64,000 bases of DNA from Dehalococcoidia bacterium (GTDB lineage Bacteria > Chloroflexota > Dehalococcoidia > Lucifugimonadales > Lucifugimonadaceae): NCBI GenBank assembly GCA_029940375.1, contig JAPYUX010000003.1, positions 123,971 to 187,970 on the forward strand, given 5' to 3'. Numbering within the stretch: the first letter of the stretch is position 1; each line of letters opens with the position of its first letter. Under the pieces are notes generated by a model. The model was given only the letters and a program-made list of their open reading frames with translations. It had not been told where the DNA came from and ran no database searches. Of this stretch, positions 50,244 to 59,170 are shown piece after piece. The position numbers were made by a program, and so were the translations under genes.

Positions 50244-51176
50244 ATGAAATATTGTTATGCTAATAGAAGAATGACGTTATATCCTAATTCAGTAGATCCA
50301 TGGGGGCTTTCTCCTGATGACTACACCAAAGAATTTTTAACTCGAGTAAAGGATATGGGATTTGAAGCTCTAGAAATGTCTACAGAAACATTAGATAGAG
50401 TCGGTGGAACCAGAGAAACGATAAGCGAATTTACAAAAAGAATTAATGGTTTTGGATTAGATATTGGAGCCATTAGAAGTGGAGGAACTTTAACTGAAGC
50501 AAAGAATGGACCTCAAAATGTTAAAAAAATGGAAAAATCAATTAATTATGGAAAATTTTGTGGAGCAGAAGTAATCAATGGAGCAATAAGTGCTCCTTCA
50601 AGATATCCAGGGAATCCATCAGGTAGTTTACCTGCTTCAGGATCAGGTTGGCCTCAAGCACAGGATTCTTCTAAGGACGCCAATATATGGATTTATGATC
50701 ATTTGGCGAAAATTTATCAGGATGCTTGTGATTCTGCTTCTGATGAAAATATAAATATTTCTGTTGAAATCCATCAAAATTCTCCAATAGATAATTCCTG
50801 GTCTGCAGTATATTTACACGAACTTGTTAACAGGGAAAATTTTGGAATTAATCCTGATTTAGGTAATGTTTTGTGGAATTATGACCAACCTGAAGAATCA
50901 TTTGAAGATTGCATAGATAATGTGGCTTCAATTTCAAAGTATTGGCATTGTAAAAATTTGCACACAGTATACCATCCGGAAAATCAAAGATCGGTATTTA
51001 TTAGGGTTCCTCTACCAGACGGCGAAATTGATTATAGATATGCTATAACTTCTATGACTAACTCTGGATATACAGGATATATGGCTATTGAAGGAGCATC
51101 AAGTGGCGATCAGTTTTATAAAGATTTTCAAAGCATAAATTACGCAAAGAGTGTAATAGAATCTTTAGATATCTAA
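50244..51176 (+). CDS. Xylose-isomerase-like TIM-barrel protein
   Basis: A 310-residue protein of the AP_endonuc_2/xylose isomerase-like TIM barrel group. A divalent-metal set is visible: Glu in ISVEIHQNSP, Asp in GINPDLGNVLWN, His in KYWHCKNLH and Glu in YMAIEGAS. Members act as sugar isomerases, epimerases or hydroxypyruvate isomerases. The ribosome-binding site AAGGGGAAG precedes the ATG. The gene converges on an MFS carrier. Substrate not assignable. Confidence 0.85.
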   Translation: MKYCYANRRMTLYPNSVDPWGLSPDDYTKEFLTRVKDMGFEALEMSTETLDRVGGTRETISEFTKRINGFGLDIGAIRSGGTLTEAKNGPQNVKKMEKSINYGKFCGAEVINGAISAPSRYPGNPSGSLPASGSGWPQAQDSSKDANIWIYDHLAKIYQDACDSASDENINISVEIHQNSPIDNSWSAVYLHELVNRENFGINPDLGNVLWNYDQPEESFEDCIDNVASISKYWHCKNLHTVYHPENQRSVFIRVPLPDGEIDYRYAITSMTNSGYTGYMAIEGASSGDQFYKDFQSINYAKSVIESLDI

Positions 51177-52400
51177 ATCTTTTGGTATTTTCCCATATTT
51201 TGAGATCCAGGTAAGTAATATTGAAAAAAGGAACAAAATTCCTATTCCAATGAATGCATTTCTATAGGAGCCAGTATTATCGTGAATTATCCCAGCAACT
51301 AGTGGTGCGATAGCCATTGTAATAGCCGATAAAAGTTGGTTTATTCCCATCATTGATCCAAGGTTTTTCATACCAAACTGTTCAACTACCATGAGTGGAA
51401 TTAAAGCACCGAATGCTCCAAATCCTAATCCATAAATGAAACATCCAAGAAATAATATATAGTTACTGCCACTAATACATAATACAAAAACTCCTATAGT
51501 TTGAAAAAAGAAACTTAAAATCAATGTTTTTCTAGCTGTATATGTTTCACTTGCTCGACCAAAAGTAATTTTTCCTATAATACCCATAAAAGCTATCATC
51601 ATTAGACAACTAGTAGCCATTTTGTAAGTCATTCCTTCATCAGAAAGATATTGAGTTAACTGAGTTAGAATTCCCTGATAAGTTAAAACTCCTAACATTA
51701 GGGATAAATTTATTGTCCAGAAACGAAAGGATTTTAGAGCTTCATTTAAAGAAAGCCCTAATTTTGCTTGTGCTTTTGCTAATGACACCAAATTTGGATC
51801 TCTATTAGTTCTAATTGTTTCTTTTTCAATAGTATCTAAAGATTCCGTAACGATAATATAAGCAAATATTGCCAAAAAAAGCATTATTATTCCAAAAATA
51901 AAATAAGCTGTTTCCCAATTAACAAAAGTAATTATAGATGCTGCTAAAGCCGGCATAGTAAAACCACCAAAATTGTTTCCAGCTGTTACTGAACCCATAA
52001 CTCTACCCTTGGTCTTTGGAAACCAAATAGGTACTATTTTTCCAGCAGCTATTTGAGTAGCGCCTGGAAATCCAGCATAAACTAATCCGCTGTATAAGTA
52101 CCATTCCCATAGACTAGAAATAGTAGGTCTTAGTAAAAATCCAATACTAATAATTAATAAAGAGATAAAAATAACCAATCTAATCCCGTGTTTATCAGCC
52201 ATCTTTCCTAGAATAGGACCTGTTATTCCCGAAACAAAAGCCAAAGATAGTGCGCCATTTAATTGAGTTTTAGTCCAACCAAACTGAGATTGTAGTGGTT
52301 CTGCAAATTGACCGAATGCATATTGAGACATTCCTATGGCTAATCCAGTAGATAAAAAGGCGACAAATGCTATCTGATATCCACGGTAGGGTATTTTCAT
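51165..52400 (-). CDS. MFS transporter, monocarboxylate/oxalate-formate-like
   Basis: A 411-residue, 12-helix MFS carrier. GQFAEPLQSQFGWTKTQLNGALSL in the first loop and GKMADKHGIRLVI after helix two resemble the oxalate:formate/monocarboxylate branch. The ATG at 52400, behind AAGGA, was preferred over the frame opening at 52436. The gene is divergent from the PAL-like quartet and shares its 129-base control region. Import of the lyases' substrate, or of the acid they release, is a reasonable guess, not shown by sequence. Confidence 0.85.
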   Translation of the reverse strand: MKIPYRGYQIAFVAFLSTGLAIGMSQYAFGQFAEPLQSQFGWTKTQLNGALSLAFVSGITGPILGKMADKHGIRLVIFISLLIISIGFLLRPTISSLWEWYLYSGLVYAGFPGATQIAAGKIVPIWFPKTKGRVMGSVTAGNNFGGFTMPALAASIITFVNWETAYFIFGIIMLFLAIFAYIIVTESLDTIEKETIRTNRDPNLVSLAKAQAKLGLSLNEALKSFRFWTINLSLMLGVLTYQGILTQLTQYLSDEGMTYKMATSCLMMIAFMGIIGKITFGRASETYTARKTLILSFFFQTIGVFVLCISGSNYILFLGCFIYGLGFGAFGALIPLMVVEQFGMKNLGSMMGINQLLSAITMAIAPLVAGIIHDNTGSYRNAFIGIGILFLFSILLTWISKYGKIPKDLDI

Positions 52401-52529
52401 TAAGAATTCCTTAAAAAAATATTTTCTTGAAAACAATGAATTTATTCTATATTATATCTTCAATAAACATAACTAAAGATTTATTATTACAGAAAGCATT
52501 TATCGTTATTGAATCGAGGTGAAATTATA
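52401..52529. promoter_or_regulatory. Divergent promoter region between MFS carrier and PAL-like quartet
   Basis: A 129-base A+T-rich spacer from which both units must be transcribed. TATATTATA near 52450 is a possible -10 element on either strand, but no convincing -35 partner or operator dyad is seen. GAGGTG at 52515-52520 is the ribosome-binding site of the first lyase-like gene. Confidence 0.35.
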
Positions 52530-53474
52530 GTGACTACTACAAATATCAATTATGAACCTATAATGAATTGGGCTAAATTACCCATGGGAATATCTTTTTA
52601 TGGAGATTGTGCAGCCGTGGCAACAGATTCCAAAGATAATGTTTATGTATTTAACAGAGGAACGGATCCAGTATGTGTTTTTGATGAATCTGGAAATTTT
52701 ATAAGATCTTTTGGCAAAGGAGATTTTGATGGAGCGCATGGTATTACATTAGATGCTGAAGATAATATATATTTGGTTGATACTGGCGGTCATTTTGTTC
52801 AAAAAAGAGATAATGACGGAAATGTTATTTTTACTATTGGGGAAAGAGGAAAACCTTCTGCATGGCAAGAAGGGGATATGTTCAATAGACCCACTGACAT
52901 AATAATTCATCCAAAAACAGGTGAATTATTTATTTCAGATGGATATGGAAATTCTAGAGTTCACAAATTATCTCCAGATGGAAAGCATATTAAAAGTTGG
53001 GGACTTCCTGGATCAGGTGATGGAGAATTTTCTTTGCCTCATAATATTTCAATGATTGGAGATGATAAAGTTATAGTTGCTGATAGAGAGAATTTCAGAT
53101 TACAAATTTTTAGTACGGAAGGTGAATATTTAGATCAATGGCACTTACATCATCCAATGTCCGTTATTCAGGGTAAAAATGGAGATAATAATTTATATAT
53201 TGGAGAAATGGGGCCTCCTTTTGTTCAAACGGATGTTCCCGATTTGGGGAATAGAATTGTAATTCTCTCGCCCACTGGCGAAAGAATTACACAATTTGGA
53301 GATGGTTTACCCGGACAAAACCCAGATCAGTTTGTTGCCCCACATGGTGTAGGAACAGATTCTAAGGGTAATGTTTATGTAGCAGAAGTGGCTTGGACTT
53401 GGTGGGGTTCTAAAAGAGTTCCGCAACCATTAGGTGAACTTATTTCTTTAAGAAAATGGGAAAAAAGTAAATGA
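52530..53474 (+). CDS. PAL-like NHL-repeat beta-propeller, copy 1
   Basis: A 314-residue NHL propeller of the peptidyl-alpha-hydroxyglycine amidating lyase (PAL) superfamily. From the GTG at 52530 (GAGGTG upstream; a TTG at 52509 is poorer) it aligns end to end with copy 2. Matches to PAL catalytic positions are R43 (FNRGTDP), H70 (GAHG), Y139 (SDGYGNSR), H171 (LPHN) and H272 (APHG). No signal peptide, so cytoplasmic. PAL cleaves a carbinolamide to an amide and glyoxylate; the substrate here is unknown and no hydroxylating PHM partner is present. Confidence 0.87.
   Translation: MTTTNINYEPIMNWAKLPMGISFYGDCAAVATDSKDNVYVFNRGTDPVCVFDESGNFIRSFGKGDFDGAHGITLDAEDNIYLVDTGGHFVQKRDNDGNVIFTIGERGKPSAWQEGDMFNRPTDIIIHPKTGELFISDGYGNSRVHKLSPDGKHIKSWGLPGSGDGEFSLPHNISMIGDDKVIVADRENFRLQIFSTEGEYLDQWHLHHPMSVIQGKNGDNNLYIGEMGPPFVQTDVPDLGNRIVILSPTGERITQFGDGLPGQNPDQFVAPHGVGTDSKGNVYVAEVAWTWWGSKRVPQPLGELISLRKWEKSK
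52932..53107 (+). repeat. Direct repeat, 176 bases identical to 53886-54061
   Basis: This stretch of copy 1 is identical base for base to 53886-54061 in copy 2. The match is bounded by single differences at 52931/53885 and 53108/54062 and runs on for 35 bases after the second. It encodes the Tyr- and second-His-bearing blades. Flanks are clearly more diverged, which fits recent gene conversion or local duplication. Confidence 0.95.
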
Positions 53475-53480
53475 GGAAAT

Positions 53481-54425
53481 ATGAGTGTTACTGTTTTGAA
53501 ATTTGAACCAGTTCCTAACTGGGCTAAATTACCTATGGGAATATCTTTCTATGGAGATTGCGGTGGAGTAGCAACAGATTCTAAAGATAATGTTTATGTA
53601 TTTAACAGAGGAACCGATCCAGTATGTGTTTTTGATGAATCAGGAAACTTTATAAGATCGTTTGGGCATGATGAATTTGATCGACCACATGGTATTGAAA
53701 TTGATAGTGAAGATAATATTTACCTAGTAGATGATGGCCCAGGAAATTTTGTACAAAAAAGAAATAACGATGGAAAAGTTATCTTTACTGTTGGAGAGAG
53801 AGGAAATGCTGCCCCGTGGCAGGGAGGAGATATGTTCAACAGACCTACAGATATAGCTATTCATCCAAGAACAGGTGAATTATTCATTTCAGATGGATAT
53901 GGAAATTCTAGAGTTCACAAATTATCTCCAGATGGAAAGCATATTAAAAGTTGGGGACTTCCTGGATCAGGTGATGGAGAATTTTCTTTGCCTCATAATA
54001 TTTCAATGATTGGAGATGATAAAGTTATAGTTGCTGATAGAGAGAATTTCAGATTACAAATCTTTAGTACGGAAGGTGAATATTTAGATCAATGGCATAT
54101 TCATCACCCAATGTCCGTCACAGAAGGTAAAAATGGTGATAAAAATCTATATGTTGGAGAAATGGGACCTCCAGAAGTACAGCAAGGTGTCCCAGGTTTA
54201 GGTAACCGAATTGTTGTTCTAACTCCTGATGGTGAAAGAATTACACATTTCGGGAATGATTTACCCGGACAAAACCCAGATCAATTTGTTGCTCCACACG
54301 GAGTTACAACAGATTCTAAAGGAAATGTATATGTGGGTGAAGTAGCTTGGACTTTTTGGTATTCGAAAAAAGATCCTCACCCTCTGGGAGAGTTGGTGTC
54401 GTTGAGAAAATGGATAAAAAAGTAA
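53481..54425 (+). CDS. PAL-like NHL-repeat beta-propeller, copy 2
   Basis: A 314-residue near-duplicate of copy 1, six bases after it. Predicted active-site residues are R43, H70 (RPHG), Y140, H172 and H273. Intermediate blades include FNRPTDIAIHP and ADRENFRLQIF, matching PAL's QPTDVAVEP and ADRENGRIQCF. A Met precedes the third His in vertebrate PAL, but Ala does here (APHG). The ATG follows GAGGAA. Function predicted as a carbinolamide lyase releasing glyoxylate, by inference from conserved residues. Confidence 0.87.
   Translation: MSVTVLKFEPVPNWAKLPMGISFYGDCGGVATDSKDNVYVFNRGTDPVCVFDESGNFIRSFGHDEFDRPHGIEIDSEDNIYLVDDGPGNFVQKRNNDGKVIFTVGERGNAAPWQGGDMFNRPTDIAIHPRTGELFISDGYGNSRVHKLSPDGKHIKSWGLPGSGDGEFSLPHNISMIGDDKVIVADRENFRLQIFSTEGEYLDQWHIHHPMSVTEGKNGDKNLYVGEMGPPEVQQGVPGLGNRIVVLTPDGERITHFGNDLPGQNPDQFVAPHGVTTDSKGNVYVGEVAWTFWYSKKDPHPLGELVSLRKWIKK
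53886..54061 (+). repeat. Direct repeat, second copy of 52932-53107
   Basis: Partner of the 176-base identical tract in copy 1, 954 bases apart. The two gene starts are 951 bases apart, so the tract lies at nearly the same place in both genes. Confidence 0.95.
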
Positions 54426-54442
54426 TTTAGGATAAAAGAAAA

Positions 54443-55387
54443 ATGAAACAAATAACTAAAGATACAGTTTTTAAACCAGTGCCAATGTGGGCTAAACTAC
54501 CACATCCAATGCGTTTTCATGAAGCTACAAGCGTAGCAACAGATTCTAAAGATAACGTTTATATATTTAATAGAGGTGAATACCCATTAATCATATTCGA
54601 TAAAGAAGGTAATTATTTATCACATTGGGGTGAAGGTGAATTTGATAGACCTCACGGTATACGAATAGATCAAAATGATGATTTATTTTTAATAGATGAT
54701 ATGGCTCATATGGTTCAAAAGAGAGATAAAAATGGGAAAATATTTTTTACTATTGGTGAACGAGGTAAAGCAGCTGAATGGCAAGGTGGTAAATTTTTCA
54801 ATAGACCAACTGATGTTGCGATAGATGAAGAATCCGGGAATATTTTTATATCAGATGGATATGGAAATTCTAGAATACATAAATTTACTTCTGAAGGTAA
54901 ACATATAAAAAGTTGGGGTCAACCAGGATCAGAAAATGGACAATTTTCATTACCTCATAATCTTTCTATTTTTGATGGCAATAAAATAGCTTTATGTGAT
55001 AGAGAAAATTTTAGAGTTCAGATATTTAATTTTGAAGGGGAATATATTGATCAATGGCATTTTCATAGACCTATAGCCATTTATTCAAAACAAGATTCAA
55101 AAAACTTGTTTATTGCAGAAGCAGGTATCTCTGGAGAATCGGGTAATAACGGAGTTCCTAATTTAGGTTTGAGGATAGTTATAGTTAATGAAAAAGGAGA
55201 AAAATTGACAACTTTTGGTAAAGGAACTCTTGGAGAAAATCCTGATCAAATTATTGGACCTCATGGCTTATCAGTGGATTCTGAAGGCTCAGTATACATT
55301 GCGGAAGTTTCATTTACCTCGTTCGGATCTAAACAAGATCCGCCTAGGGAAGTGGTATCTTTAAGAAAATGGAAAAGGAGTGAATAA
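54443..55387 (+). CDS. PAL-like NHL-repeat beta-propeller, copy 3
   Basis: A 314-residue paralogue, less similar to copies 1 and 2 but aligned along its full length. Positions corresponding to PAL's catalytic and zinc residues are R44 (FNRGEYP), H71 (RPHG), Y140 (SDGYGNSR), H172 (LPHN) and H274 (GPHG). DRENFRVQIF is retained. A loop GISGESGNNGVPN near 228-240 differs from the other copies and may alter the pocket. Separated by 17 bases from copy 2 and overlapping copy 4 by one. Confidence 0.87.
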   Translation: MKQITKDTVFKPVPMWAKLPHPMRFHEATSVATDSKDNVYIFNRGEYPLIIFDKEGNYLSHWGEGEFDRPHGIRIDQNDDLFLIDDMAHMVQKRDKNGKIFFTIGERGKAAEWQGGKFFNRPTDVAIDEESGNIFISDGYGNSRIHKFTSEGKHIKSWGQPGSENGQFSLPHNLSIFDGNKIALCDRENFRVQIFNFEGEYIDQWHFHRPIAIYSKQDSKNLFIAEAGISGESGNNGVPNLGLRIVIVNEKGEKLTTFGKGTLGENPDQIIGPHGLSVDSEGSVYIAEVSFTSFGSKQDPPREVVSLRKWKRSE

Positions 55388-56280
55388 TGATAGTTGGAGA
55401 TGGTGAATTTAGATATGAAGTTGAAGAAAATTGGCCTAAAAAGATTCCCGAATATTGGACATTAGGTCAATGTGCAGATATAGATGTAGATGCTGACGAT
55501 AACATTTGGGTGTTTTCTAGAAATTTACACCCTGTTACTAAATGGTCTAACGATGGAGAATTTCTTGGCTCATGGGGAAATTTTGGATATCAAAAAGGTG
55601 AATTTAGAGTAGCTCATGGTCTAAACATAGACTCTGATGGTTATATATGGTTAAGTGATAATCAAACTCATCAAGTAACAAAACATAAACCTGACGGAGA
55701 ATGTGTACTTGAATTAGGAGAATATGGTTTTGCAAACTTCACTCTGAGTACTGATGGTTCTCAAGGATTACCATTTAATATGCCGACTGGCTCAAGTATA
55801 GCCCCTGATGGGAAAATATTTGTTAGTGATGGATATGGGAACCGAAGGGTTCATAGATTTTCCAAAACAGGTGAGTATGAGATATCTTGGGGAGAACACG
55901 GCACTGGAGACGGACAGTTTGCAATTGTTCATAAATTGGGTGTTTCTAAAGATTCAAGAGTTTTTGTTTGTGATAGAGAAAATAATAGGATTCAGATTTT
56001 CTCTACTGAAGGAGAACTTTTAGATATATGGACTAATGGATTAGCAGGTCCAGGTGATGTGTATTTTCAAGGAGATTACGTCTATGTCGTAGAACAAGGT
56101 GGAGGTAATGGTATTTCAATTTGGAATCTAGATGGAGAACTTATCACAAGATGGAGAGGTATTCCAGAAGTGTGTGAAGCAGCTCATGGATGTGCATTAG
56201 ATTCTAGAGGAAATTTATATATTGCAGAAATTGGATTTGGTGCAGTTGGACAAAGATTTAGAAAATTGAATAAAATCTAG
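55387..56280 (+). CDS. PAL-like NHL-repeat beta-propeller, copy 4 (divergent)
   Basis: A 297-residue, most divergent member of the quartet. The key residues persist: R45 (FSRN), H77 (VAHG), Y150 (SDGYGNRR), H182 (IVHK) and H267 (AAHG), with DRENNRIQIF. The C-terminus is shorter and lacks the SLRKW tail of copies 1-3. The preceding stop codon shares a base with its ATG, so it is translated with copy 3. It converges on malate synthase with 17 bases between the stop codons. Confidence 0.86.
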   Translation: MIVGDGEFRYEVEENWPKKIPEYWTLGQCADIDVDADDNIWVFSRNLHPVTKWSNDGEFLGSWGNFGYQKGEFRVAHGLNIDSDGYIWLSDNQTHQVTKHKPDGECVLELGEYGFANFTLSTDGSQGLPFNMPTGSSIAPDGKIFVSDGYGNRRVHRFSKTGEYEISWGEHGTGDGQFAIVHKLGVSKDSRVFVCDRENNRIQIFSTEGELLDIWTNGLAGPGDVYFQGDYVYVVEQGGGNGISIWNLDGELITRWRGIPEVCEAAHGCALDSRGNLYIAEIGFGAVGQRFRKLNKI

Positions 56281-56297
56281 TTGTAAATTTATAATTT

Positions 56298-57962
56298 CTA
56301 TAAAGCATCAGAATTATTTGCTATGTGATTTAGTTCCTTTCTAGTATATGAGCCAAGTGATCTGAAATTAAATTCTGTGTAGTTTTTGATCCAATGCATA
56401 GCAATTTTAGAAGATTTATTATAATTGGTTTTTTGATCATCGGAAGCTGTTTCTCCTAATTGATCAATAATATCCTCGGTTTCTGATACGATCAATTCTT
56501 TTACTAATTCTATTGAATGAGCTTCTTCTGTATCTTCACTAATCGACTTATGTATGATTCTTTGAGCAATTTGGCCAGTGGAAATTCTTGCAGTCGCCAA
56601 ATCTTCCATTAATGCTGGTCTTTTACCAGGTTTACCCGCTAATCTATCAATTCCTTTTGCGCCACGACCATTCAACCATGCTTCCAAATATTCGATAAGA
56701 GTTCTGATATTTTGCCTTGTTCCTTCTTTTGTCAAAATACCATTAGGCTTTTCAATTTTTATTGGATAGTTATCGGGCTTTTTCATATTTTCTGTTGGTA
56801 CCCAGCCTGATTCATGAATCTTTTTAAATGGTTCAGCTGCAGGATCCATATGATAAATATGGGCTACCCAAGCTCTAATAAAACCTTGTTTTGCTTCCCA
56901 TTCTTTATCAGATTTTATAGATTTTGCAGCTTCTATATTAACTTCCTCGTCTCTTGAAGGTAGGGCAGTAGCCATTCCTCCAATTGGTACAGCATTATGT
57001 TTTAAACATATTGCTACCAAACGTCTAAAAATATTTGACATAAATTCGGTATTTTGGATTGTCACATCAAATCTATCTGGCCAAACATAATTTTCATCAT
57101 GCATTACATATTCTAAAATACTAGCTTTTAAGTCCCACCTAGCTGCATTTAATCCCGCTGCATATTTACCTAAAGAGAACAACATTTCTTCCATTTGAAA
57201 AACAGCAGGTAATGATTCGATTAATATTATTCCTTTAATAGTAGCATCAGCTAGTTCAGGTACTTTACTTTGTATTTCATGAAATAAGTTGTTATAAAAT
57301 TTTGTTTCATTTGGTGTTTCAGTTTTAGGTATATAAAAATAGATCCCTTGATTTTTTTTGTGTTGTTCTCTTCCTCCAAAATAGAGGGTTAATGCTGTAC
57401 CTAAGATTGTAGCTGATATTGGATTTCCATCTATTGCGACTTGTGGTTCGTCTAAATGGATACCTCTTTCTCTATGCATAAAAAAAGGAATTTTACCAGG
57501 TTCTAATTCATAATGCTTTCCTGTATTTTTATTATCGAATGTTAAACTGCCTAAAGTTGCTTGCATTCTGTTTCTTGTTGCTAAAATTGTATCTTCTAGA
57601 GTATGTCCAGCAGCATCTTCATCATCATCTAAATCTCCTTCAGCTCTTACTCCTCCAGGACCTGGATTTAAAGCATTAATTAACATTGAAGCTATACTCG
57701 CTGGTCCTGAAATTTCAATCCCTGGTATTCTTAGTTCTTCTGGTATTTCTTCAACCATCCAATCTGAATTTGCTTCTGAAGTTGGAAGAATGCTTGGCAT
57801 TTCTCCGTTTCGTGCTTTTTTCAAATTATCTAATCTTACTTTTCTCAAACTTTGTACTTCTTCACTAAATTTATCATGAAGGTGTACAAGTAAATTTATA
57901 AAATCCTCAGTAAATATATCTGAACACTCTATTTTTGATTCGTAAGACAGTCTTTTTACCAA
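56298..57962 (-). CDS. aceB: Malate synthase (A-like)
   Basis: Condenses glyoxylate with acetyl-CoA to malate. The 554-residue protein shows the malate synthase A core: HRERGIHLDEPQVAIDGNPI (163-182), IYFYIPKTE, IILIESLPAVFQMEEML (245-261), GLNAARWDLKASILEYV (R275, D277 region) and PIGGMATALPSRDEEVN. The N-terminal DLDDDEDAAGHT and the WVAHIYHMDPA segment depart from E. coli wording, so it is a divergent branch. TTG start behind AGGAG. No isocitrate lyase gene is in the window; the glyoxylate must come from another source. Confidence 0.85.
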   Translation of the reverse strand: MVKRLSYESKIECSDIFTEDFINLLVHLHDKFSEEVQSLRKVRLDNLKKARNGEMPSILPTSEANSDWMVEEIPEELRIPGIEISGPASIASMLINALNPGPGGVRAEGDLDDDEDAAGHTLEDTILATRNRMQATLGSLTFDNKNTGKHYELEPGKIPFFMHRERGIHLDEPQVAIDGNPISATILGTALTLYFGGREQHKKNQGIYFYIPKTETPNETKFYNNLFHEIQSKVPELADATIKGIILIESLPAVFQMEEMLFSLGKYAAGLNAARWDLKASILEYVMHDENYVWPDRFDVTIQNTEFMSNIFRRLVAICLKHNAVPIGGMATALPSRDEEVNIEAAKSIKSDKEWEAKQGFIRAWVAHIYHMDPAAEPFKKIHESGWVPTENMKKPDNYPIKIEKPNGILTKEGTRQNIRTLIEYLEAWLNGRGAKGIDRLAGKPGKRPALMEDLATARISTGQIAQRIIHKSISEDTEEAHSIELVKELIVSETEDIIDQLGETASDDQKTNYNKSSKIAMHWIKNYTEFNFRSLGSYTRKELNHIANNSDAL

Positions 57963-58069
57963 TTTAATTCTCCTAAAACATTTTTTATTTAATCAGGAAT
58001 TATAATATCATTCTATAGATAAATGTACAGTAATTTTTTGTTAGAAAGAAAAGTATAATTTTTCCAGTT

Positions 58070-59170
58070 CTAAATTTCTTTTTTAAAAACATCAAGGATT
58101 AAATCAACATACTCAGATTTACAACTTTCTCCCATCAATCCTATTCTGAAAACCTTTCCTTCAAAATTTCCAAGCCCTCTTCCAATTTCTATAGAGTAAT
58201 CATTTATTAATCTATTTCTAAACTCTACGTCATCAATATGATCTGGTTTTGTTAGAACAGTTAGTTGATCTAATCTATCTTTCTCAGAAATAGGTAAATT
58301 GATATTTAGTTCCATAAGTCCTTTTCTTAATTTATCAGCATTATGTATATGACGAGTCCAGCGTTCTTCAATACCCTCTTCTTCCAAAAGTCGTAATGAT
58401 TCATATAGCCCATAGATGGAACTTACTGCAACTGTATATTGAGGAATATGATCTTCCCCCCAATAATCATTAACGAGTGATAAATCTAAGTACCAAGATG
58501 AAGGTTTCTTAGTCCTATTTCTTATATATTCATAAGCTCTATTTGATAAAGCACATGGAGATAACCCTGGTGGACTTGCAAGGCATTTTTGTGAGCCACT
58601 ATAGGCAAAGTCAATACCCCAAGAATCAAATAATAACTCTGTTCCTGCTAATGAAGTAACGCAATCTACCATAAACATCGCATCATATTTTGAAACTATT
58701 TTTCCTAATTCTTGTATATTTTGTTTAACACCTGTACTTGTTTCTGCGTGGGTAGCAACCACTAATTTTGTATCAGGATTTTTTTTCAATGCTTCTTCTA
58801 ATAACGAAGGATCCATTTGCTTTCCCCATTCGGACCTAAGAGGTATCACATCCAATTCAAGTCGTTCTGCCATAAGTATTTGTCTTTCACAAAAGTATCC
58901 ATAACTACATATGATTACTTTATCTCCTCTTTCAGCAAGACAAGTAAGCCCAGCTTCCATTCCAGATGATCCTGATCCACTTAGAGCAAATGCATTATCA
59001 TTAGTTCTAAATAAGCTTTTAAGACTGCCTCTTACGTCGTCTAGTACTTTGAAAAACTCTGGGTCCAAATAACCTAGTATAGGATTAGACAAAGATTTGA
59101 GAACTTCTGGATTAGCAGAAGATGGCCCTGGGCCAAGAATAATTCTTTTATTTACTTTTAGAGGCTTCAA
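58070..59170 (-). CDS. Alanine-glyoxylate / serine-glyoxylate-type aminotransferase
   Basis: A 366-residue class V PLP aminotransferase of the AGXT/PucG group. ILGPGPSSANPEVL (11-24) is the substrate loop, ALSGSGSSGMEAGL binds phosphate, MVDCVTSLAGTELLFD carries the PLP Asp, and SGSQK (K195) the Schiff-base lysine, followed by CLASPPGLS. Such enzymes use glyoxylate as the amino acceptor to form glycine. TTG start behind AGGA. It lies 107 bases upstream of malate synthase on the same strand. Donor amino acid (Ala, Ser or ureidoglycine) not decidable. Confidence 0.9.
   Translation of the reverse strand: MKPLKVNKRIILGPGPSSANPEVLKSLSNPILGYLDPEFFKVLDDVRGSLKSLFRTNDNAFALSGSGSSGMEAGLTCLAERGDKVIICSYGYFCERQILMAERLELDVIPLRSEWGKQMDPSLLEEALKKNPDTKLVVATHAETSTGVKQNIQELGKIVSKYDAMFMVDCVTSLAGTELLFDSWGIDFAYSGSQKCLASPPGLSPCALSNRAYEYIRNRTKKPSSWYLDLSLVNDYWGEDHIPQYTVAVSSIYGLYESLRLLEEEGIEERWTRHIHNADKLRKGLMELNINLPISEKDRLDQLTVLTKPDHIDDVEFRNRLINDYSIEIGRGLGNFEGKVFRIGLMGESCKSEYVDLILDVFKKEI

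Follow-up and report, generated by a model that had tools for sequence, protein, structure and literature searches.

A 64,000-nucleotide stretch of contig JAPYUX010000003.1 (G000:C6:123971-187970 in our numbering), hereafter the window, comes from an uncultured marine member of SAR202 (Chloroflexota). The host genome is 1.47 Mb in size and 92.9% complete, and its nearest named relatives are the SAR202/Chloroflexi metagenome-assembled genomes (MAGs) OSU_BB06, SP316, TMED70, NAT118, and EAC10. Within the window, four open reading frames (ORFs) lie head to tail on the + strand from 52509 to 56280 and encode NHL six-bladed propellers that are predicted to be lyases of the type of PAL, the lyase that amidates hormones in animals. 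For simplicity, members of this quartet were annotated PAL1 (52509..53474), PAL2 (53481..54425), PAL3 (54443..55387), and PAL4 (55387..56280). Because PAL1 and PAL2 are separated by 6 bases, PAL2 and PAL3 by 17 bases, and PAL3 and PAL4 overlap by 1 base, the quartet is probably an operon-like run read as one transcript. The true start of PAL1 is probably the GTG codon at 52530 rather than position 52509, and a Shine-Dalgarno-like GAGGTG box precedes this codon. Inspection of the N-termini revealed no obvious signal peptide, and the proteins are not fused to PHM.

The quartet consists of PF01436 NHL repeats and is related in sequence to PAL over its full length. PAL2 matches rat PAL (PALcc, 3fvz/3fw0) with an E value of 6.9e-29 by phmmer and 4.7e-38 by profile search, and PAL3 matches 3fvz by phmmer with an E value of 6.5e-26. 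Identity over the fold is 26-30%, and the motifs DGYxNSR and DRENxRxQ are shared. In the phmmer alignment, R43, H70, Y140, H172, R187, and H273 of PAL2 correspond to rat R533, H585, Y654, H690, R706, and H786, where the rat numbers are our own count from the 3fvz chain numbering with an offset of 491. An initial annotation of this DNA had placed the PAL Arg, Tyr, and three His of the second copy at positions 43, 140, 70, 172, and 273, and the alignment bears this out. All six columns are invariant across the quartet, including PAL1, which is 82% identical to PAL2, and PAL4, the most divergent copy (39% identity to PAL2), where the residues are R45, H77, Y150, H182, R197, and H267. The three His of the rat enzyme are its Zn ligands, and the first Arg is a further residue of the PAL site. 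Mutagenesis and crystallography have identified Y654 and R706 (human 651 and 703) as the catalytic dyad of PAL, and the R706A variant lost 97% of PAL activity (PMC10303134).

A set of 99 PAL-like proteins, picked for their similarity to the copies in the window, was drawn from this and further SAR202 families of the order, and all 99 keep the same six residues. In the host genome, two weaker NHL homologues (L007 and L008) retain only the first Arg and carry C/H/W/W/T and T/H/W/W/A at the other five positions. Because all 99 relatives keep the site and these two proteins do not, its conservation is not due to chance. The PAL-like family also keeps H146 and E287, where rat PAL has Val and Asp. 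Most of the site, together with W14, H146, and E287, is also present in cytosolic homologues from rhizobia.

AlphaFold2 models were obtained for PAL2 (pLDDT 86.2, pTM 0.88) and PAL4 (pLDDT 85.6). The best Foldseek match of the PAL2 model is PAL itself (3fvz, E 1.1e-21, TM 0.79/0.76), and the VIA comparison with PAL gives a Z score of 36.0 over 279 residues with an rmsd of 2.4. For PAL4, the VIA Z score to 3fvz is 33.3 over 273 residues, again with an rmsd of 2.4. In the models, H70, H172, and H273 of PAL2 start the inner strands of blades 2, 4, and 6, as do H77, H182, and H267 of PAL4. Because these are alternate blades of a six-bladed ring, the modeled His residues should point to one axis, which fits convergence there. 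The PAL assignment nevertheless rests on the residues, and the fold alone is not taken as proof, because Foldseek and VIA place plain NHL domains on a par with PAL.

In a phylogenetic tree, PAL2, PAL3, and PAL4 form separate, largely well-supported clades that span genera of the family, and they are three old lineages. PAL1 nests in the PAL2 clade of the host genus and is thus a recent, genus-level duplicate of PAL2, so that four is not the ancestral copy number. Across the SAR202 genomes of the order, PAL-like matches range from none to tens, with a maximum of 39 in a sample of 60 genomes. We presume that quartet-type PAL-like proteins fall within COG3391. This COG is among the abundant COGs of SAR202 and is listed as uncharacterized (PMC6946804). 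In SP316, the closest relative (G005), locus L064 (8892-9899 and 12856-13749) shows a second PAL4 copy as well as a PAL1 match that contains one TGA and unreadable residues, which suggests that PAL copy number is still changing. Separately, a 5-kb contig binned as Alphaproteobacteria (L043, JAGWAU010000094.1) carries a luciferase-like monooxygenase gene between two PAL-like genes; its PAL sits inside the SAR202 PAL2 clade, indicating that the contig was either misbinned or transferred.

Upstream of the quartet, and divergent from it, lies a major facilitator superfamily (MFS) carrier gene (51165..52436, - strand). It scores best against L-lactate/monocarboxylate carriers, in agreement with its earlier description as monocarboxylate-like, at a level below the curated cut-off (NCBIfam SfMCT, 165 bits versus 320). 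Beyond it are a xylose-isomerase-like, sugar-isomerase-like TIM barrel (50244..51176, + strand, PF01261), a second MFS carrier (49010), and a fumarase/aspartase-family gene (47209). Downstream, convergent with PAL4, is a divergent SAR202-type malate synthase A-like gene (56298..57962, - strand; PF01274, 170 bits; PF20659), followed by a class-V aminotransferase of the alanine-glyoxylate type (58070..59170, - strand). The malate synthase aligns end to end over ∼500 residues with malate synthase A (3cux/3cuz) and scores 302 bits against TIGR01344, below the equivalog cut-off of 594.5. Both its TIM barrel and its C-terminal domain are recognized. The Arg, Glu, Asp, and Asp that we take to be catalytic are in register with 3cux. 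Judged by these alignments, the malate synthase is genuine. The aminotransferase is closest to the alanine-glyoxylate aminotransferase of Nostoc (1vjo, E 2.1e-84) and falls below all NCBIfam equivalog cut-offs. The initial annotation had named both as glyoxylate consumers following the quartet, and the alignments agree with those identities.

The absence of isocitrate lyase, also part of that annotation, was upheld to the extent that PF00463 has no match in the 93%-complete host genome, while the control search matched in 8 of 14 genomes. A glyoxylate shunt was accordingly not found in the host, and isocitrate lyase was ruled out as its glyoxylate source. One genus-mate MAG (G003) carries a standard malate synthase beside a strong isocitrate lyase (C49:2759-5142); its relatives are without both, and this pair is probably contamination. 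Most other PF00463 matches are partial, of ∼50 bits in ORFs of ∼300 aa, and are probably PEP-mutase-superfamily proteins. As other possible glyoxylate sources, the host encodes an FAD-oxidase_C protein (a 974-aa open frame) that could be a glycolate or lactate dehydrogenase, and up to 14 HpcH/HpaI aldolase matches, including one pair that stems from a duplicated contig end; ureidoglycolate lyase (PF04115) was not found. Contigs C6 and C14 of the host gave matches of equal score and spacing in two separate searches (C6:24039-24611 and C14:278344-278916; C6:42506-43039 and C14:296811-297344), and probably share one duplicated stretch at an overlapping contig end, which slightly inflates gene counts. 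Across the order, malate synthases can be divided by length and score into at least three kinds: the divergent form of ∼570 aa, the standard A-type of ∼530 aa, often accompanied by isocitrate lyase, and long forms of 720-800 aa.

Co-occurrence was evaluated in 217 genomes of the order. PAL was scored as present when the best match had an E value <1e-40, and every genome fell either below 1e-40 or above 1e-21; the thresholds for malate synthase and true isocitrate lyase were >90 bits and >130 bits, respectively. Of the 200 PAL-bearing genomes, 103 carry malate synthase but no isocitrate lyase, a combination seen in none of the 17 genomes that lack PAL (Fisher 1e-5; 5e-5 for genomes ≤1.9 Mb; median 2e-4 with one genome per genus and 0.02 with one per family), a contrast that was framed after the data were seen, among related genomes and with no unrelated family as control. 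Four PAL-lacking genomes do carry malate synthase, and all of them have isocitrate lyase.

Taken together, the sequence relation, the fold, and the conserved site provide good support for carbinolamide-lyase (PAL-type) chemistry, and our best functional reading, to which we assign a probability of about one half, is that the quartet are PAL-type lyases of a cytosolic bacterial PAL-like family. In such enzymes, the three His from alternate blades would hold a metal ion, which is Zn in rat PAL, beside the Tyr and the two Arg. The enzymes would break the C-N, or possibly the C-O, bond of an alpha-hydroxy-alpha-substituted acetate, for which N-acyl-alpha-hydroxyglycine and ureidoglycolate are candidate substrates. 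The products would be glyoxylate and an amide or a comparable compound, and the reaction would be one step in the scavenging of dissolved organic matter. Because both Arg and the catalytic Tyr are kept, it is reasonable to infer that glyoxylate would be released. Such glyoxylate would join a common pool, from which malate synthase and the glyoxylate-type aminotransferase would draw. PAL2, PAL3, and PAL4 probably act on different substrates, since they are old, separately kept lineages.

Several observations weigh against this assignment. The NHL domain of Thin ties with PAL as a match for the PAL2 model (VIA Z 36.1), and NHL domains likewise tie with PAL for the PAL4 model (Z 33.2 and above). 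Gly replaces the Ca ligand D787 of rat PAL (G274 in PAL2), and the disulfide Cys C655 is also Gly (G141), so that the residues of the structural Ca site and disulfide of the rat enzyme are not found in the quartet. The literature offered nothing usable on bacterial PAL function or on SAR202 with an amidating lyase. Across the order, PAL-like genes are flanked by catabolic genes of mixed kinds, with no hydroxylase partner linked. A search for PHM (PF01082) gave no match in the host genome and 60 relatives; the control genomes were silent too, and the result is hence uninformative. A shared molybdenum-hydroxylase partner was also considered and rejected, as the gene upstream of the second PAL in the host's own genome proved to be RecG. 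Large molybdenum-hydroxylase genes (aldehyde oxidase/xanthine dehydrogenase family) do stand beside or near PAL-like genes at L094, L095 (G039), and L107 (G050), Pfam-confirmed in L094, and are a possible source of hydroxylated substrate. Finally, 86 of the 200 PAL-bearing genomes have no malate synthase, and malate synthase is therefore not an obligate glyoxylate sink.

A stronger version of the proposal, put forward in the initial annotation, is that the quartet, the malate synthase, and the aminotransferase form one dedicated pathway in which the neighbors consume PAL-released glyoxylate at once. The lack of an isocitrate lyase in the host, the restriction of malate synthase without isocitrate lyase to PAL-bearing genomes, and the alanine-glyoxylate type of the neighboring aminotransferase all favor such a module. 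Gene order was compared across 12 genera of the family (g1-g12). Malate synthase adjoins the PAL genes in g1, where this holds for all sampled members, and in g8, both convergent; in g5 (L048, L088) PAL2 and malate synthase are close in a different orientation and without a sigma-70 gene, an arrangement that keeps a functional link between the two possible. However, malate synthase is located apart from the PAL genes, elsewhere in the genome, in g2, g3, g6, g7, g9, and g10. In g4 and g12 no malate synthase was found, and g11 is divided between these two states. The commonest neighbor of malate synthase is instead a sigma-70 gene (g1, g8, g2, g7, and g10), and in g6 and g12 the PAL genes are next to or near the sigma-70 gene with no malate synthase between them. 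Adjacency of the class-V aminotransferase is confined to the host species and its closest relative, and in g6 this gene is ∼7 kb away. The host species lacks the pair of sigma-70 and class-I aminotransferase genes at this location, and as a result the class-V aminotransferase adjoins malate synthase. The adjacency of both genes thus looks to be largely regional gene order rather than a dedicated operon. When neighbors were tallied against a background set, none of the families listed beside PAL-like genes was a glyoxylate enzyme. Given this, and the PAL-bearing genomes without malate synthase, we consider a dedicated module unlikely. The co-occurrence check proposed in the initial annotation came out positive in one direction only, with malate synthase unaccompanied by isocitrate lyase being confined to PAL-bearing genomes. 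In a genus mate (G004, L062 11915-14905), four cobalamin-assembly-domain genes (CobT-type phosphoribosyltransferase, CobS, CobU, and phosphatase) lie between PAL3 and malate synthase, in the place of PAL4 in other members of the genus.

Genes that accompany the PAL genes more steadily than malate synthase does are the TIM barrel, the two MFS carriers, and the fumarase/aspartase-family gene described above; in most genera of the family, PAL2 has the carrier at 51165-52436 beside it or close by. They are joined by an HpcH/HpaI aldolase in g10, g11, and g12 and by an enolase-family, galactonate-dehydratase-like enzyme in several genera, and MR_MLE proteins are common beside PAL-like genes. These neighbors, along with the many host aldolases, could indicate that the propellers are hydrolases or lactonases, comparable to SMP-30/gluconolactonase, that feed acid-sugar dehydratases and HpcH/HpaI aldolases, with the aldolases yielding glyoxylate or pyruvate. 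SMP-30/gluconolactonase and Vgb-lyase propellers share the general fold and give weak Pfam matches, but neither is the best match by sequence or by fold, and their active-site residues differ from the PAL site. The quartet matches PF08450 (SGL) weakly (9e-5 to 3e-6): PAL4 is just over the cut-off (27.3 versus 26.3), PAL1 and PAL2 are below it, and PAL3 is not listed. The quartet conserves the His triad of PAL along with its Tyr and both Arg, a combination that is not known from any lactonase, which makes the sugar-acid route a doubtful alternative. That the propellers are non-enzymatic scaffolds, as NHL domains that bind RNA or protein in animals and their level VIA ranking might suggest, is very improbable given that the six residues are kept through three old paralogues in 99 of 99 proteins, whereas the two other NHL proteins of the host have lost them.

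The quartet proteins differ from rat PAL in being separate short proteins without a PHM domain, encoded by tandem paralogues. PAL-like proteins of Bradyrhizobium (43% identity), Mesorhizobium, and Priestia belong to the same family, and homologues carry the family name; these are single genes in other settings, whereas SAR202 has a tandem set and a clade with many copies. The Mesorhizobium homologue (L066, plasmid NZ_AP023251.1) has Asp at the R706 position, and its gene immediately precedes a cluster for the uptake and degradation of ectoine. The N-(hydroxymethyl)guanidine lyase MgdL resembles PAL in principle, as it speeds the breakdown of a hydroxylated C-N intermediate, but it has no homology to PAL in sequence according to its authors (PMC12508155), and a link to the quartet was rejected on this ground.

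SAR202 bacteria are abundant in the deep ocean and are thought to oxidize recalcitrant dissolved organic matter. It is possible, and we advance it only tentatively, that SAR202 has expanded its complement of cytosolic PAL-type lyases, that these are independent of PHM and diversified in their substrates, and that by stripping two-carbon (glyoxylate) units from hydroxylated N- or O-linked compounds of recalcitrant marine organic matter they sustain malate synthase without isocitrate lyase. If true, a numerous uncharacterized SAR202 family, COG3391 (PMC6946804), would gain a concrete chemistry, the clade-wide oddity of malate synthase kept without isocitrate lyase would be explained, and PAL chemistry would serve catabolism outside hormone amidation.

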